From a virus: a stretch of DNA of 43,624 bases. Of the stretch, positions 30,600 through 43,624 are shown one piece after another. The translations under genes and the position numbers were made by a program. The notes under the pieces were generated by a model. The model searched no databases and was not told the DNA's origin. It saw nothing but the letters and a program-made list of their open reading frames with translations. Position 1 is the first letter of the stretch. Each line of letters begins with the position of its first letter. Location of the stretch: IMG/VR virus record IMGVR_UViG_3300042007_000262, positions 1 to 43,624 of that record, one strand, 5' to 3'.

Positions 30600-30836
30600 T
30601 CACCGCTGCCTTGCCCAGGGCGCGAACTGTGCGTTGCGCCGTTGATGTTCTTCCTCGCACTCATCGCAGCGCTGGGCGCCTTGCGCGGTGCGCTCGGGTC
30701 GAATCGGTTCGCCACAATCTAGGCGCTCGCAGGTTGTGCGGCCGGCCCGCGCGGTGCGCTGAGCCTGATGCCGTTTGATTGAGTCCTGCACGTGTTCGTC
30801 GTTGAACGACTGCAGGTGGTCCATTGCGTCAGGCAT
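30600..30836 (-). CDS. TraR/DksA-family zinc finger protein
   Basis: The 78-aa product begins with a helical segment (MDHLQSFNDEHVQDSIKRHQ) and carries the four-cysteine zinc finger CERLDCGEPIRPER...CDEC typical of TraR/DksA proteins. TraR-type proteins bind the RNA polymerase secondary channel and alter host transcription without ppGpp. The start at 30836 overlaps the upstream gene by 8 bases; a second ATG four codons later (30824) is possible. It belongs to the leftward early operon. Confidence 0.85.
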   Translation of the reverse strand: MPDAMDHLQSFNDEHVQDSIKRHQAQRTARAGRTTCERLDCGEPIRPERTAQGAQRCDECEEEHQRRNAQFAPWARQR

Positions 30837-31413
30837 GCGTCCGGTCCCCTTCCGGCATGAGTGCTGTAATCGAACGACGAACCGACAGCACAGCGCTGAT
30901 CAGGTCGTCGGACTTGTTGAGAATCTGCAGGGCGTGCTTCAGATCAGCCTCGTTGATGCGGCCGTCGGCCATCGCTGGCGCGATCGCACTCAACAGTTCG
31001 CCGAATTCCGTGCTGAGTTCGCCGACGCTACTGACCGCGTTCGTGTCGACGTTATCGATGCGAACGCAAAGATGGCCACGTCGACGCGCGAGGTCGCGTT
31101 CGCAATCGGAGCGGAAAGGCTCGGGCAACGCGGACACCCACGCGTCCTCGAGGTCGGCCGGCAGCACCTTGACCGTGCCGTCCATATAGCGGCGCAGCAC
31201 CTGGCCGTTGTCTTTCATGGCTCGGCAGAGCGCATCGCCTTCACCGAGGCGCAACTTCACCTGGCGAACATCGGGCGCGACCAGTGCGTGGTAGCGCTCC
31301 GCGACGGCCATCGCGAACGAGTTCGCGTTCGTTGCTGTCTCGTCGAGCATGCGCCGGGTGTATCCGAAGATCACCGACTGGCGCGGCGGCAGATACTGAG
31401 GCCCGCGCTTCAT
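30829..31413 (-). CDS. Early phage protein (194 aa), possible CII-type regulator
   Basis: The product sits where cII lies in lambdoid phages, third in the Cro operon and before the replication genes. It has helical segments throughout; residues ~55-90 (RLGEGDALCRAMKDNGQVL, then RYMDG) could form a DNA-binding helical unit, and the C-terminal part (INEADLKHALQILNKSDDL) is helical as well. I do not recognise a definite family; the CII idea rests on position. The ATG overlaps the previous stop as ATGA. Confidence 0.62.
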   Translation of the reverse strand: MKRGPQYLPPRQSVIFGYTRRMLDETATNANSFAMAVAERYHALVAPDVRQVKLRLGEGDALCRAMKDNGQVLRRYMDGTVKVLPADLEDAWVSALPEPFRSDCERDLARRRGHLCVRIDNVDTNAVSSVGELSTEFGELLSAIAPAMADGRINEADLKHALQILNKSDDLISAVLSVRRSITALMPEGDRTHA

Positions 31414-31574: not shown

Positions 31575-31883
31575 TCAGGCCGCCTCAGCGGGTCGCACCC
31601 GCTTCGTGTAGCTGATGACGGCGCCGGCGGCGTCGCGGTGCCACTCCAGGTCGGGCAGCAGCTGCTCGACGGTGACCAGGCCAAACTCCCGGGCACGGTC
31701 GGCCGCGGCCGGCGACTCGGCGACGATCCCGGCCACCGCGCGCTCGATGGCGATCGCGGTGTCCTCGTCGAACCCGTGCTGCAGCCAGTAGTGGACGTGA
31801 CCCGAAGCCGGCTTCCCCTTGACCCGGCGGGCGAGCTCGGTTTGGGTGCCGCAGATGGCGATGGCGCGCTGTAGTGCGTTCAC
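31575..31883 (-). CDS. Cro/YdaS-like regulator
   Basis: The 102-aa product starts with GTG at 31883. The N-terminal part (LQRAIAICGTQTELARRVKG, then SGHVHYWLQHGFDEDTAIAIERA) is a YdaS/Cro-type helix-turn-helix. It is the first gene of the leftward early operon and is divergent from the repressor across three operator-like palindromes, exactly the place of Cro. It should repress the lysogenic promoter and allow lytic growth. The C-terminal ~35 residues are outside the HTH and not recognised. Confidence 0.82.
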   Translation of the reverse strand: MNALQRAIAICGTQTELARRVKGKPASGHVHYWLQHGFDEDTAIAIERAVAGIVAESPAAADRAREFGLVTVEQLLPDLEWHRDAAGAVISYTKRVRPAEAA

Positions 31884-31895
31884 GGAGGCCCATAT

Positions 31896-31959
31896 GCAAG
31901 AAAACTTGCGACAAGTTACCGCAAACTTTTTTGCGGCGCAAGGCTGCAAGATCCCTTGT
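31896..31959. promoter_or_regulatory. Operator triad between Cro-like and repressor genes
   Basis: Three 14-bp palindromes of the form GCAAG-N4-CTTGC lie at 31896-31909 (GCAAGAAAACTTGC), 31921-31934 (GCAAACTTTTTTGC, degenerate inner bases) and 31946-31959 (GCAAGATCCCTTGT). Their centres are exactly 25 bp apart. They lie between the divergent starts at 31883 and 31960, so they must cover both promoters. The last one touches the repressor ATG, which implies a very short or leaderless repressor message. Confidence 0.85.
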
Positions 31960-32550
31960 ATGCAACTAGGCCAGATCGTCGCGGAACTGATGAAGCAGGA
32001 GGGGCTCAGCCTGTCCGGCGTAGCTGAACGCGTGCGCGCCCAGGGCGCCCATAACGTGAAGCACCAACACATCCAGCAGCTGATCGAGTTCCCAAACCGG
32101 CGGCCGCGCTATCTGCCAGAACTGGCGAGGGCGTTCGGTTTCACTGTGGAGCAGCTGATGGCGTGGCGCCCCGGCGACATTCCTAACCGCGTTCAGGAGT
32201 CGAGCTCAGTCTACGGATCGATGTCGCACGACATGCGAAGCGGGCTTGAGAGGATGGCCTCCACGGTCAAGTTGCTTCAGTACATCGTGGAGATCCAGAA
32301 CGGCCCGCCCGAGGCGCTCCACGACCCCTACCTTCTCACCATCGCCCACGAGATCGTCTCGGAGGCTGGCGAAGCCGTCACTGATAGCAACCTGATCGAG
32401 TTCAGCCGGCGGTTCGCCGCCAGACAACGCGAGCGGGAGATCAACGATGGCACTAAGCGAAAATCGACTTCGGGAACTGGCGGGGATGATCTCGGCGCGC
32501 ATGGACGAACTGCGTCCGGCGCCGGCGGGAAGGGCAAAACCGCAACTTAG
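31960..32550 (+). CDS. Prophage repressor, CI-like HTH protein without S24 domain
   Basis: ATG at 31960 gives a 196-aa protein. Residues 1-72 form an HTH region (MQLGQIVAELMKQEGLSLSG, VKHQHIQQLIEFPNRR, LARAFGFTVEQLMAWRPGD). The rest is helical and charged, ending with a low-complexity Gly/Thr/Lys tail. No Ser-Lys S24/LexA-type self-cleavage domain is visible, so induction may not follow the usual RecA route. Its end overlaps the next gene by 104 bases in another frame. An upstream ATG at 31894 would run through the operators and is unlikely. Confidence 0.78.
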   Translation: MQLGQIVAELMKQEGLSLSGVAERVRAQGAHNVKHQHIQQLIEFPNRRPRYLPELARAFGFTVEQLMAWRPGDIPNRVQESSSVYGSMSHDMRSGLERMASTVKLLQYIVEIQNGPPEALHDPYLLTIAHEIVSEAGEAVTDSNLIEFSRRFAARQREREINDGTKRKSTSGTGGDDLGAHGRTASGAGGKGKTAT

Positions 32551-32830
32551 AGTCGTCACTACTCCGAAGCCCACGCTGTGGGATTCGATCACCCGCGAGT
32601 GCGTTCTTAAGCGGGTACGCTTCCTGCGCGATCGCTGGGGCATGCACTGCTTGGTCGACCAGGCGACGTTCAACGTGCCGAACCTGGATTGTCTCGAAGA
32701 CGAGGATCTCGCACGCCTGCTGCACGACATGGAGCATGCCCGCGAGTGCAGCCGCGACGGCATCGATTGGGAGGAGGCCGGGCTGATCCGGTCGGTCGCC
32801 CGGCACGTCCCCTTGGACGCGTTCGACTAA
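32447..32830 (+). CDS. Repressor-cotranscribed protein of unknown function (127 aa)
   Basis: The frame starts at ATG 32447 inside the 3' end of the repressor gene; a second ATG at 32486 preceded by GGGG would reduce the overlap. The product has a helical start (RLRELAGMISARMDEL), a linker, a middle section LWDSITRECVLKRVRFLRD, and an acidic C-terminal region (CLEDEDLARLLHDMEHARE). It ends before the terminator at 32899, so it is expressed in the lysogen with the repressor. It might modulate the repressor or act as an exclusion factor; neither can be shown. Confidence 0.7.
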   Translation: MALSENRLRELAGMISARMDELRPAPAGRAKPQLRVVTTPKPTLWDSITRECVLKRVRFLRDRWGMHCLVDQATFNVPNLDCLEDEDLARLLHDMEHARECSRDGIDWEEAGLIRSVARHVPLDAFD

Positions 32831-32898
32831 CAGCCGGACCGCAATTCTGCGCAAAAAGCGGCATTCGCCCCCTGTAATCAGGCCCTCGTAGACCGCTC

Positions 32899-32931
32899 GC
32901 AAGCCCCGTTTATCGGGGCTTGCGTCTTTTT
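32899..32931 (+). terminator. Intrinsic terminator of the repressor operon
   Basis: A perfect 10-bp stem GCAAGCCCCG/CGGGGCTTGC with loop TTTAT (32899-32923) is followed by GTCTTTTT. It closes the repressor transcript just before the next promoter/operator region. Confidence 0.92.
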
Positions 32932-32942
32932 ACGGCATCGCC

Positions 32943-32985
32943 GCAAGAAAACTTGTTGACTTGGCCGCAAGTTTTCTTGCAGTAT
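32943..32985 (+). promoter_or_regulatory. Second operator pair and rightward early promoter
   Basis: Two copies of the same palindrome as in the Cro/repressor region lie at 32943-32956 (GCAAGAAAACTTGT) and 32967-32980 (GCAAGTTTTCTTGC), centres 24 bp apart. A -35 element TTGACT (32956-32961) is followed after 18 bases by CAGTAT (32980-32985), so the second operator sits in the promoter spacer. Repressor binding would shut off the operon beginning at 33101. This is the equivalent of lambda OL/PL. Confidence 0.82.
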
Positions 32986-37577: not shown

Positions 37578-39563
37578 ATGAACGCACAGCCATCCATCAT
37601 CCAGGTGCCGCTCTCGCAGCTGCGCCTCTCCCCACGCAACGCCCGCAAGACTGGCGGCCACGACATCGAGGGCCTGGCGGCATCCATCGCCGCGCACAAC
37701 CTCCTGCAGAACCTGACCGTGACACCGGCACTGCGTGAGGACAAATACGAAGTCGTCGCCGGCGGACGGCGCTTGGCTGCGATGCAGCTGCTCCGCGATC
37801 GTGGCCAACTGGATGCCGAGTTCAGCGTGCCGTGCAAGCTGATAGTCGACGACACCGTTGCGCTCGAAGCAAGCACCGCCGAGAACACGCTGCGCGAAGC
37901 GATGCACCCCGCGGACCAGTTTGTCGCGTTCAAGGGCATGGTCGACAACGGCAAATCAATCGACGATGTCGCCGCCCATTTCGGCGTCCAGCCGGCGATC
38001 GTTCGGCAGAGGCTCAAGCTGGCCAACGTAAACCCGAAGCTGGTCGAGGTGTATCGCGAGGGCGGCATGCAGCTGGACCAGCTGCAGGCACTGGCATTGA
38101 CCGACGATCAGGAATTGCAGCGCAAGGTGTGGTTCGGCAGCAAGGAAACATGGCAGCGTCGCGCTGACGAGATCCGCAAGCGCATCACGAAGCAGGAGGT
38201 AGGGCCAGATAACCCGCTGGTCAAGTTCGTTGAGCCGTCGCTGTACGAGGCCGCTGGCGGCCCGATCCGCAACGATCTGTTCACTGGCCAGGTTTACTAC
38301 GGCGACTCAAGCCTGTTGAACACGCTGGCGAAGAATAAGCTCGACGCGATCGCGCTGCAGGAGAAGGACGCGGGTTGGTCTTGGGTAGAGGCGCACATGC
38401 TGCTCGACTATTCGCAGCAATCGGCCTATGCCCGCAGCACGTTCGCCCCTAAGCGCACGAAGCCCACGCCCGAGGACGAGGCGCGCACCGCGGAAATCGA
38501 GAAGCGGTTGAAGGAAATCGAGGCGATCGAGGAAGCCAGCGAGCTCGAGCTCGACGACGTACTGCAGAACGAACAGGACGCGCTTCAGTCGGAACTCGAA
38601 CTGATCGAGTCAAAGCGGGAACAGTGGCCGGCCGAAGCCAAGGCCAAGACCGGCGTGCTGATATACCTGGATCGCTATGAGGGCCTTCGGATCGAGCGCG
38701 GCCGCTTGCGGCCTGGCCAACGCGAAGGCGCCGCCACCAAGACCAAGGGCAAGGATGGCAAGCCGGCGAAGGCGGCTCTCAGCCAGGACATGGTGCAACG
38801 CCTCGAGATGCACCGCGTTGCCGCAATTCGCGAACACATCGCTGCTGATCCAGCCAAAGCGCTGCAGCTGCTGCTTGCGCATCTGCTGACGAAGCTGTTT
38901 TCGGATGGCTATTCCGAGTCCACGCTTGATATCGCGCCTGAAAATCAGCACCGCAAAGCACGCGGTCTGATCGACTCGAAGTTCGCCGACCTGGCCAAGT
39001 CGCCGGCGCGAAAGGCGATCGACGATCGCTTAGCCGAATGGAAGAAGGCCGGGTTGCCCGGCAAGTCCTCCGACATATATGCGTGGCTGGGAACGCAGAG
39101 CGAGGCCAAGCGGCTGCAGCTGCTCGCGCTGGCCACCGCACTCACCCTCGGCAGCAATCCGGGCACACGAGGCTATGCGCTGGCCGAACAGTTCGGTGTC
39201 GACATGACCAAGTGGTGGACCGCCACTCCCGAGACGTTCATCGGTGTCGTTCCGAAGGCGCTGCTCGCCGAAGCTGTCAGCGAAGTCGCCGGCAAGGCTG
39301 AAGGCGAGGCCGTATTGCTGCTGAAGAAGGACGGCGCAATGGCCGAGGCCGCGAAGAAACTCGCCGGCACGGGTTGGCTGCCGAAACCGTTGCGCGGCGC
39401 TGGCTACAAAGTCGGCAAGCCCGCATCCGCGAAGGCCGCCACACCGGCGACTGCGCCAGCGGCGAAGAAGGCGCCGGCGGCCGCGAAGAAGGCCACGAAG
39501 AAGGCGGCCACCAAGCCCGTCAAGAAGGCCGCGAAGGCGGTGCTGAAGAAGGGGGCCAAGTGA
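37578..39563 (+). CDS. ParB-like partition protein with histone-H1-like tail (661 aa)
   Basis: The N-terminal ~200 residues are a ParB domain: PLSQLRLSPRNARKT, VVAGGRRLAAMQLL (GxRR CTP-binding box), ENTLREAMHPADQ (ENxxRExMHP box) and an HTH (SIDDVAAHFGVQPAIVRQRL). A long middle part contains coiled coil (~300-350) and unknown helical domains. The last ~50 residues are a Lys/Ala/Pro tail as in bacterial H1-like proteins (KKAPAAAKKATKKAATKPVK). No ParA is encoded here. GAGGAA precedes the ATG. It may bind the parS-like sites in terL or organise phage DNA; related long ParBs exist in plasmids and ICEs. Confidence 0.85.
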   Translation: MNAQPSIIQVPLSQLRLSPRNARKTGGHDIEGLAASIAAHNLLQNLTVTPALREDKYEVVAGGRRLAAMQLLRDRGQLDAEFSVPCKLIVDDTVALEASTAENTLREAMHPADQFVAFKGMVDNGKSIDDVAAHFGVQPAIVRQRLKLANVNPKLVEVYREGGMQLDQLQALALTDDQELQRKVWFGSKETWQRRADEIRKRITKQEVGPDNPLVKFVEPSLYEAAGGPIRNDLFTGQVYYGDSSLLNTLAKNKLDAIALQEKDAGWSWVEAHMLLDYSQQSAYARSTFAPKRTKPTPEDEARTAEIEKRLKEIEAIEEASELELDDVLQNEQDALQSELELIESKREQWPAEAKAKTGVLIYLDRYEGLRIERGRLRPGQREGAATKTKGKDGKPAKAALSQDMVQRLEMHRVAAIREHIAADPAKALQLLLAHLLTKLFSDGYSESTLDIAPENQHRKARGLIDSKFADLAKSPARKAIDDRLAEWKKAGLPGKSSDIYAWLGTQSEAKRLQLLALATALTLGSNPGTRGYALAEQFGVDMTKWWTATPETFIGVVPKALLAEAVSEVAGKAEGEAVLLLKKDGAMAEAAKKLAGTGWLPKPLRGAGYKVGKPASAKAATPATAPAAKKAPAAAKKATKKAATKPVKKAAKAVLKKGAK

Positions 39564-41189: not shown

Positions 41190-41407
41190 TCGGTCATATT
41201 CTCCAGTTCGAGGATCTGCAGGAGCTATGCCGGCCGGGCGAGCACCCGCGCCTGGCCACGGTCGTAAAGTGGGCGGACGCCGCCGGGATCCGCTACAAAT
41301 TTGACGGGAAGGGAGGGATCTGGACTACTCTCGATGCCCTTAATGCCGCGCTCGGCGTCGCCGCGGCGAACGACAGCGCCGCCTACGATCCCAGCCAGGT
41401 GTTGTGA
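41186..41407 (+). CDS. DUF4224-like protein, possible excision factor (73 aa)
   Basis: GTG at 41186 overlaps the previous stop as GTGA. The pattern FEDLQELCRPGEHPRLATVV, KWADAAGIRYKFD, GGIWTTLDALNAALG corresponds to the DUF4224 type of small winged-helix proteins usually encoded directly before phage tyrosine integrases. A directionality (Xis-like) role is plausible. Stop and integrase ATG overlap (TGATG). Confidence 0.74.
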   Translation: MIGHILQFEDLQELCRPGEHPRLATVVKWADAAGIRYKFDGKGGIWTTLDALNAALGVAAANDSAAYDPSQVL

Positions 41408-42588
41408 TGGCCGGCCGCAAGCGCAAGTTCGATCCGACGATTCCGAAGCACATCGACCAGGCTGGCATTCCGGCCGGTATCTATTGGGACGGCCGCTGGG
41501 GCGGTACCTGGTACGTGCTCGAGCGATCGCCCGAGGGTAAGCAAAAATGGCGCAGCGTGGCTCCGGCCACGGCCCTGCTGAGCGATCTCCACGTGATTGC
41601 CGAGGCCAGGGCAGGCAAGACCGACCGCAACGTCCTGCGCGCCTTGTGCGAGGCATTCGAGGAAAGCCCGCAGTTCCGCAAGCTTGCCAAGGCCACGCGC
41701 ACCGATTACATCTACTGCCGCGGTGTCGTCGTGGACCTCAAGACGAAGCTCGGGAAGCCGTTCGGCGACTTAGTCACCAGGAAGATCAAGCGGCCGTTGG
41801 TGCAGCTGTTGATCGACGCGATCGCCGGCGGCACCGAGCGCGACGCGACGGGCGCCTTGATTCCCACGCCGAGTAAAGCGGTCCACGTCCAGCGCTACCT
41901 CAGCCGCTTGTTCGAGTGGGGCGCAAACCGCGGCTTCAACGACGTCAACCCGGCCGAAGGCATCGAACTGCCAGCGGAACGCAAGCTGCGGCGTCTACCT
42001 GAAGCGCAGGCCATGACCGACCTGGTCGCATTCGCTCGCGCCCGCGCCGGCACCCGCGGAAAGACTGGCAGCGTGGCGCCGTATTTGTGGGCCACGATCG
42101 AAATCGCGTACATGCTTCGCTTGCGCGGGATCGAGGTCACCACCCTGACGGATGCGCATGCACTCGATCAGGGGTTGATGACGAACCGGCGCAAGGGCAG
42201 CCGCGACAATATCACCACCTGGACGCCCCGCTTGCGCGAGGCGTGGGATTACCTCATCAAGTTGCGTAGCGAGACATGGGCGAAAAAGAAATTCCCAGTA
42301 CCCATGCGCGCGGACCAGCGCTTCCTGGTCGTGACGCTGAGCGGCGACCCGATCAGCAAGAGCGGCTTTGATTCAGCCTGGCAGCGCCTTATCCAGCTAG
42401 CCATGAAGGAGGGCAAGATCTTGCCCGAGCAGCGCTTCGGCGCGCATGACCTGAAACGGCGCGGCATTACGGACACGCCTGGCACTCGCGGCGAGAAGCA
42501 GTTGGCCAGCGGGCACACCAACGAGCAGATGCTCGACGTCTACGACTACAGCCTGCCGGTGGTCAGACCATCCGGCGATGCCTCATAA
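41407..42588 (+). CDS. Phage tyrosine integrase
   Basis: The 393-aa protein has an N-terminal arm-binding and core-binding region (to ~residue 175) and a C-terminal catalytic domain. The expected catalytic positions are visible: Arg in MLRLRGIEVTTL, the H-x-x-R box as HDLKRRGITD, and SGHTNEQMLDVYDYS with His and the nucleophilic Tyr near the C-terminus. It recombines attP with attB in tRNA-Asn; the attR lies 100 bases downstream. An in-frame GTG at 41404 is an alternative start. Confidence 0.93.
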   Translation: MAGRKRKFDPTIPKHIDQAGIPAGIYWDGRWGGTWYVLERSPEGKQKWRSVAPATALLSDLHVIAEARAGKTDRNVLRALCEAFEESPQFRKLAKATRTDYIYCRGVVVDLKTKLGKPFGDLVTRKIKRPLVQLLIDAIAGGTERDATGALIPTPSKAVHVQRYLSRLFEWGANRGFNDVNPAEGIELPAERKLRRLPEAQAMTDLVAFARARAGTRGKTGSVAPYLWATIEIAYMLRLRGIEVTTLTDAHALDQGLMTNRRKGSRDNITTWTPRLREAWDYLIKLRSETWAKKKFPVPMRADQRFLVVTLSGDPISKSGFDSAWQRLIQLAMKEGKILPEQRFGAHDLKRRGITDTPGTRGEKQLASGHTNEQMLDVYDYSLPVVRPSGDAS

Positions 42589-42684
42589 AATAGAGTCGGC
42601 CGCCCAAGAAAATCAGCACCTTACCCGCCGCTCACACATAAAATGAAACTAATTAAGTTACTGATTCTAAAGGCTTGCAGAAGC
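42589..42684 (+). other. Phage attachment arm between integrase and attR core
   Basis: This AT-rich spacer (for example ATAAAATGAAACTAATTAAG) holds no gene. AAAGGCTTGCA at 42669-42679 reappears at 42740-42750 beyond the tRNA fragment, forming an 11-bp direct repeat with a 71-bp period. It probably contains integrase arm sites. Confidence 0.6.
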
Positions 42685-42731
42685 GACTGTTAATCAGGGG
42701 GTCGTTGGTTCGAGTCCAACTTCGGGCGCCA
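42685..42731 (+). other. attR: 3' fragment of tRNA-Asn (anticodon GTT)
   Basis: The sequence runs from the anticodon arm (GACTGTTAATC, loop CTGTTAA, anticodon GTT) through the variable region, a good T arm (GTTGG/CCAAC with TTCGAGT loop), the acceptor 3' strand TTCGGGC, discriminator G and CCA. The 5' half of a tRNA is absent, and the 5' side of the anticodon stem pairs only for the two pairs next to the loop. This is what remains when a phage recombines into the 3' half of the gene; the intact tRNA-Asn should lie at attL. Confidence 0.88.
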
Positions 42732-42739
42732 GAAATATC

Positions 42740-42773
42740 AAAGGCTTGCATCGATCGATGCAGGCCTTTTTTT
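42740..42773 (+). terminator. Terminator downstream of the tRNA-Asn fragment
   Basis: A long palindrome, AAAGGCTTGCATCGA paired with TCGATGCAGGCCTTT (one G-T pair), is followed by a T tract to 42773. It is probably the original host tRNA terminator. Confidence 0.85.
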
Positions 42774-42951
42774 GTGCCCTGTGGGAAATGGCTTGGGAAA
42801 ATTCCGTGTCCCACATTGCAGCCATCCATTCCGAAGGCTGCGTGGCTAGGATCAATACCGCGCGGAAATGAAACGGGCGCTGTGGATCGGAAAACGACCG
42901 ACCTAGGCCGGGATGCTATTTATTCGACTTATCCCAGCGTTTAGGCAATCC
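42774..42951. other. Host intergenic stretch without recognisable gene
   Basis: About 180 bases lie between the tRNA terminator and the decayed P2-type gene. I see no gene, promoter or repeat I can support; a short frame crossing the tRNA fragment is not real. Confidence 0.5.
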
Positions 42952-42956
42952 CAAGT

Positions 42957-43624
42957 TCCTTCAAGCATGTCTATCACCACGCCATCGTGATTGCGGCGCT
43001 ACATAACTTGGCCGGTGAGCATGACCTACAGCCGTGCATCGCTTCAAAACTGGACCACATTGCCACCTCACATCTGGACCAAACCGAGGAGAGCGACGCC
43101 AATCCGCTAACGCGTAGCGGACGCTATGACGCGGTTGCCGCGATAAAGGCGGTCGCGCTGACTTTTTGCCAATTGGCGTGGGCGTGACGCCCACGGGCAA
43201 GCCACTGTCGAGCGCATCGATCACGCGCGCCGCCGGAGACCAGCACCGCTTCAGCATGGCTGACCGTGAGGTGTATAGCGGCGTGCGTGCCTACTGGCAC
43301 GACAAAGCTGGGGCAGATCGCAAATCGGTGTTGGTCGGCCGCAGCGACAACGCCAAGCGCTTACGGGAGAGCTACGCCAATGAGGCGGAAGCCCGCGACC
43401 ACGCGCAAGCGGAGTGGAACCGCATTCAACGCGGCGCGGCGAAATTCAACTACACGCTGGCACTGGGGCGTGGCGATCTGTATCCGGAACAGAGGCTGCG
43501 GGTCTTTGGCTTTAAGCCGGAGATCGACGGCACCGATTGGCTGATCGCGCAGCTTGTCCACCGTATCACCGGTTCCTCCGGCTTCACCACCTCGCTAGAG
43601 CTGGAAACTTCAATCGGGGTGTAG
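42957..43624 (+). pseudogene. Decayed P2-type late control/tail protein D (N-terminally truncated, frameshifted)
   Basis: Two frames together give a P2 gpD-like protein, a tail protein of myoviruses. The first (from ~42957) has LAGEHDLQP and SHLDQTEESDANPLTR; the second (to the TAG at 43622) has GKPLSSASITRAAGDQHRFS, YWHDKAGADRK, LYPEQRLRVFGFKPEIDGTDWL and TTSLELE. The switch is at ACTTTTTGCC (43161-43170): one extra T would restore LTFLPIG. About half of the N-terminal part of gpD is missing. The remnant shows that a P2-like prophage once occupied this side of the tRNA-Asn. Confidence 0.87.

Follow-up and report, generated by a model that had tools for sequence, protein, structure and literature searches.

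A Probable Lambda-Like Immunity Region with GCAAG-N4-CTTGC Predicted Operators and a YdaS-Type Cro in a Viral Genome

We analyzed IMG/VR record IMGVR_UViG_3300042007_000262 from positions 1 to 43,624 on one strand; this whole stretch of 43,624 nucleotides is referred to as the window. Two divergent genes are separated by a 76-bp gap between their starts (31883 on the minus strand and 31960 on the plus strand). The plus-strand gene (31960–32550) encodes a putative repressor of 196 amino acids, consisting of a 434-like HTH and a helical C-terminal domain. The minus-strand gene (31575–31883, GTG start) scored better than the curated threshold for the YdaS family (PF15943, E = 1e-8), so the description of its product as Cro-like in the initial annotation was borne out and refined to a YdaS-family protein. 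The next gene of the putative lytic operon encodes a CII-like regulator (30829–31413, minus strand; phrog_4834, E = 1.9e-54; PF06892, E = 2e-5, just below the cut-off), and the minus-strand order then runs through primase and helicase to packaging, head, and tail genes.

The gap contains three palindromes of the GCAAG-N4-CTTGC type, centered at 31902.5, 31927.5, and 31952.5, exactly where the initial annotation had placed them. These predicted operators were designated O1 (nearest cro; 31896–31909, GCAAGAAAACTTGC), O2 (middle; 31921–31934, GCAAACTTTTTTGC), and O3 (adjoining the repressor ATG; 31946–31959, GCAAGATCCCTTGT). O1 showed the exact consensus with 0 mismatches and O3 had 1 mismatch. 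O2 was the weakest, as had been claimed for the middle site, with 2 mismatches placed one per half-site in the symmetric form GCAAA/TTTGC. The start-to-start distances were 25/25 bp, in agreement with the equal intervals described earlier. Lone matches with up to 2 mismatches occurred at chance level in the whole window (31 against 29.5 expected). The evenly spaced triple was far above chance: no such triple arose in any of 300 Markov shuffles of the whole window or 20,000 local ones. A scan blind to both motif and spacing recovered exactly O1-O2-O3 with a score of 27 (shuffles: mean 21.0, sd 0.94, maximum 24). When at most 1 mismatch was allowed, four matches were found in 43.6 kb, all within this array, OR (O1 and O3), or a second cluster, OL (32943 and 32967).

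The array covers 64 of the 76 bp, and any promoter for either gene must therefore overlap the sites. In a consensus scan, none of PR, PRM, and PL showed a strong sigma-70 promoter. As read from the letters, TTGCGC-N17-TAACTT in the window and TTGATT/TTGAAA-N17-TAGTTT/TAGCGT in the relatives L024/L022 are possible PR candidates; in a possible alternative layout, O1 would lie inside the promoter spacer. No Shine-Dalgarno sequence was visible ahead of the repressor ATG, against which O3 directly abuts, and translation of the repressor may be leaderless.

Two further sites, located ~1 kb from the array, were absent from the initial annotation. These OL-like predicted operators, a (32943–32956, GCAAGAAAACTTGT, 1 mismatch) and b (32967–32980, GCAAGTTTTCTTGC, 0 mismatches), are 24 bp apart. 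They are placed past a predicted intrinsic terminator of the repressor operon (32898–32931, plus strand), for which the argument is its position and not its score, since one was found and 1.3 were expected by chance. The sites surround the −35 box of a candidate PL promoter (32956–32985, plus strand) composed of TTGACT (32956–32961), 18 bp, and CAGTAT (32980–32985), with operator b in the spacer; these hexamers did not reach the thresholds applied in the consensus scan. The cluster faces the plus-strand genes, at the far end of which lies the integrase gene (41404–42588). Judged by sequence and position, the region 32943–32980 is thus the predicted counterpart of lambda OL/PL, with PL itself a candidate promoter.

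In the AlphaFold2 model of the repressor (mean pLDDT 74.5), an N-terminal domain of five helices is joined by a low-confidence linker to an all-helical C-terminal domain. The HTH of the repressor resembled that of the 434 repressor both in structure (Foldseek probability 1.00, TM 0.82 of target) and in profile comparison (E = 1e-6); Pfam alone gave no match in this protein. Scans with Pfam, PHROGs, and NCBIfam found no S24 peptidase in the protein. The 434-like HTH, the S24 result, and the helical C-terminal domain together describe a CI-like head attached to a body of another kind. The earlier proposal of a different repressor family therefore stands for the C-terminal half, which is unlike known repressors, but not for the DNA-binding domain. 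TALE-repeat matches from a PDB profile search spanned only 25–60 residues and were judged to be chance. The repressor gene is overlapped by a partner gene (32447–32830, plus strand; phrog_27415, E = 9.6e-32), which accompanies the repressor C-terminal domain in relatives. The predicted fold of the partner protein gave no PDB match. In locus L083, the gene after a related repressor (L083:1086–1547, minus strand) encodes a partner-like start followed by a PAS domain (PF08447, E = 2.5e-12), which suggests that the partner position could house signal sensors.

Relatives with GCAAG-type sites were collected by scanning for the paired pattern. One close relative encodes a repressor 87% identical to that of the window, and many prophages encode repressors at about 37% identity, two of these being in S. 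maltophilia genomes. Three sites at 25/25 followed by an ATG were found in 54 loci with 12 distinct ORs; this search required the ATG after site 3, a number of the loci duplicate a single record, and most Stenotrophomonas loci are near-duplicates, so that few independent lineages are represented. O1 was kept in relatives, and O3 held the same place relative to the ATG. Between the window and the set at about 37% identity, 26/30 half-site bases are identical (25/30 for three variants), compared with 12–13/22 spacer bases. The OL pair was exactly 24 bp apart in every GCAAG-type locus with enough sequence, at 981–1283 bp past the repressor ATG. The initial annotation had named loss of the sites in relatives with the same repressor as the observation that would speak against operators; we looked for such loss and instead found the 25/25 spacing of OR and the 24-bp spacing of OL retained. 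The best-matching site was O1 in the window and O3 in most Stenotrophomonas prophages. Since the ranking of site quality differs between families, the order of occupation cannot be read from it.

When this region of the window or its proteins served as queries, DNA and protein searches matched no named phage, and Stenotrophomonas phage S1 was reached only with a Stenotrophomonas relative as the query. Searches with the C-terminal domain and the partner gene led to relatives carrying other HTHs, namely S1, about 25 S1-like prophages, L080/L113, L081–L084, and L123. The S1-type arrays consist of TTTAGC-N5-GCTAAA palindromes at 25/25, with the middle site degenerate and weakest, as in the unrelated array of the window, where the initial annotation had suggested that this site may set the order of occupation. 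The OR spacing is thus the same in both types, whereas the S1-type OL pair is 27 bp apart (e.g., L097, L120, L095) compared with 24 bp in the GCAAG type. The downstream sites were present in 17 of the 17 S1-type loci listed, one of which ends after the first OL site. L080/L113 carry TGTAAGC-type sites at 23/25. In L082, L083, and L084, the motif-free scan stayed at background level with no significant array; L081, with an unassigned start codon, lay outside that scan.

The relationships of the two repressor domains conflict, and the operators track the HTH. The HTH of the window matched those of L024/L022 (z 41–46), with all others at or below 4.6. Its C-terminal domain, in contrast, matched best those of L084/L081 (z 20–23) and more weakly that of L024 (z 8), while the C-terminal domain of L024 was closest, outside its own type, to that of L113 (z 30–32). 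The type of the divergent Cro also changes together with the HTH and the operators. Co-variation of operators with the HTH argues, indirectly, that the N-terminal domain of the repressor reads the palindromes, and the parallel exchange of Cro suggests that Cro may read them too.

The layout was compared with those of known switches. As in lambda CI/Cro, three OR sites lie between divergent cro and repressor genes, OL lies past the repressor gene, and the integrase is on the OL side. The OR spacing of lambda, 24/23 bp, is similar to that of the window. Lambda has three OL sites located over 2 kb away, whereas two OL sites were detected in the window about 1 kb away; the operator sequence, the Cro family, and the repressor C-terminal domain (an S24 peptidase in lambda CI) also differ. 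Phage S1 (NC_011589) shares with the window a homologous repressor C-terminal domain and partner gene (gp44/gp43). S1-type loci share the three OR sites at 25/25 and have an OL pair about 1.5 kb away; in S1 itself, O1 and O3 are clear at 50 bp and the middle site is degenerate. S1 differs in its unrelated HTH (z about 0), its Cro, its TTTAGC-N5-GCTAAA operator, and the OL spacing of 27.

Among the switches studied so far, those of Rac and CP-933P, both of the YdaS type, come nearest, and experiments on them revealed an equivalent design (PMC5700373, PMC8630535). In Rac, the region bound by RacR contains three repeats, and GCCTAA/TTAGGC palindromes lie in the gap (PMC5700373). We measured the Rac OR palindromes of E. 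coli K-12 at 25 and 26 bp, and found two palindromes 25 bp apart with a weaker third beyond racR, in an OL-like position (L128:2330–2394). The divergent YdaS, the three palindromes in the gap, and the downstream pair are therefore shared; the operator sequence differs, and RacR showed no detectable similarity to the repressor of the window (hhalign probability 1.5%). Because Rac has 25/26 bp despite its unrelated RacR, a spacing of ~25 bp appears common to such switches and need not come from a shared C-terminal domain, which weakens the idea that this domain fixes the 25-bp spacing. CP-933P was compared on the basis of published statements. There, experiments established that both PaaR2 and YdaS bind a shared region and control it and that the repressor transcript is leaderless; an OL/PL region is also present (PMC8630535). 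The PaaR2/YdaS/YdaT system also shares YdaS as Cro, a CII-like next gene, OR with OL, and a repressor without a RecA-cleavage peptidase (PMC8630535). Its operators are different, comprising four inverted repeats and three pseudo-symmetric sites, and its repressor is followed by toxin-antitoxin genes instead of the phrog_27415 gene.

These results led us to conclude that the region is very probably a lambda-like OR/OL immunity region of a temperate phage, in which the repressor acts at OR and OL and the YdaS-type Cro opposes it. This conclusion draws on what was observed: the sites with their spacing, the order of the genes, the OL pair, conservation in relatives, and the exchange of operators together with the HTH. 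The resemblance to lambda OR1-3 with a different operator, as initially annotated, is likewise backed by the flanking genes, the sites kept in relatives, and the OL counterpart. In the proposed switch, a repressor dimer would bind each OR site via its 434-like HTH, and neighboring dimers would touch through the helical C-terminal domain. In the lysogen, repressor at OR would silence the minus-strand lytic operon, and repressor at OL would shut the plus-strand operon that has the integrase at its far end. With O3 against the ATG, abundant repressor may limit its own synthesis. During lytic growth, Cro would shut off the repressor via O3, thereby committing the phage to lysis. That the repressor would fill both OR and OL and that Cro would act through the same region follows the examples of lambda, Rac, and CP-933P. 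We infer which protein takes which site and in which order; activation of the repressor promoter and OR-OL looping may also take place, and the inducing signal would presumably act other than by S24 self-cleavage.

Alternatively, the palindromes could serve a single regulator such as the repressor, with YdaS acting elsewhere or at an overlapping element, so that the array would be an autorepression element and not a two-protein switch. In CP-933P it was not settled exactly which sequences PaaR2 and YdaS recognize, and repeats of two overlapping types occur there (PMC8630535), which leaves room for such an arrangement. However, the footprints of these two proteins overlap (PMC8630535), and exchange of the HTH and operators brings with it another type of divergent Cro; we therefore consider the single-regulator explanation unlikely.

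Far less probable is that the GCAAG-N4-CTTGC units act in transcripts as RNA hairpins with a 5-bp stem and a 4-base loop. Each unit can indeed fold in this way, and the symmetry of O2 is kept by a paired change, but the five copies keep a constant spacing of 24/25 bp across two distinct promoters, one copy lies between the −35 and −10 elements of candidate PL, and O3 ends right at the ATG. Moreover, unrelated palindromes occupy the same places in S1-type phages. Binding of a host regulator instead of a phage protein is just as improbable, given that the sites are restricted to OR and OL within the window and that the operators of S1-type and GCAAG-type phages, both associated with Stenotrophomonas, differ according to the HTH of the phage repressor. 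A lambda-like immunity region remains our preferred explanation.

The lambda-like OR/OL function is ordinary; what sets it apart is a new operator sequence, together with an unfamiliar C-terminal half of the repressor and its partner. The region would provide a sequence-complete lambda-like switch outside enteric phages, and its GCAAG-N4-CTTGC operator code implies that S. maltophilia and related prophages should show cross-immunity. The natural HTH swaps allow one to distinguish the C-terminal domain from the promoter or DNA geometry as the determinant of spacing, and the locus offers a case for studying the induction of a repressor that lacks an S24 peptidase. Tentatively, and with considerable doubt, we propose that the C-terminal domain and the phrog_27415 partner might form a constant oligomerizing module sensing a non-SOS signal, onto which interchangeable HTH/Cro/operator heads are plugged. 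If so, new immunity specificities would arise while the operator geometry stays near 25 bp, and L083, whose partner has a PAS end, would be a signal-sensing version.

Additional features were observed elsewhere in the window. Just past the integrase gene, 42682–42732 resembles a 3′ tRNA gene half, and the GTT in its anticodon-like loop points to tRNA-Asn as a possibility; ARAGORN reported no complete tRNA there. This half is probably the attachment site. The DNA beyond it (42733–43624) is seemingly flanking sequence that, by eye from its translation, holds part of an apparent second, P2-like tail gene. Finally, matches to ParB-like partition families (phrog_7783, phrog_6218) were found at 37578–39563 in the plus-strand operon of this integrase-bearing phage.
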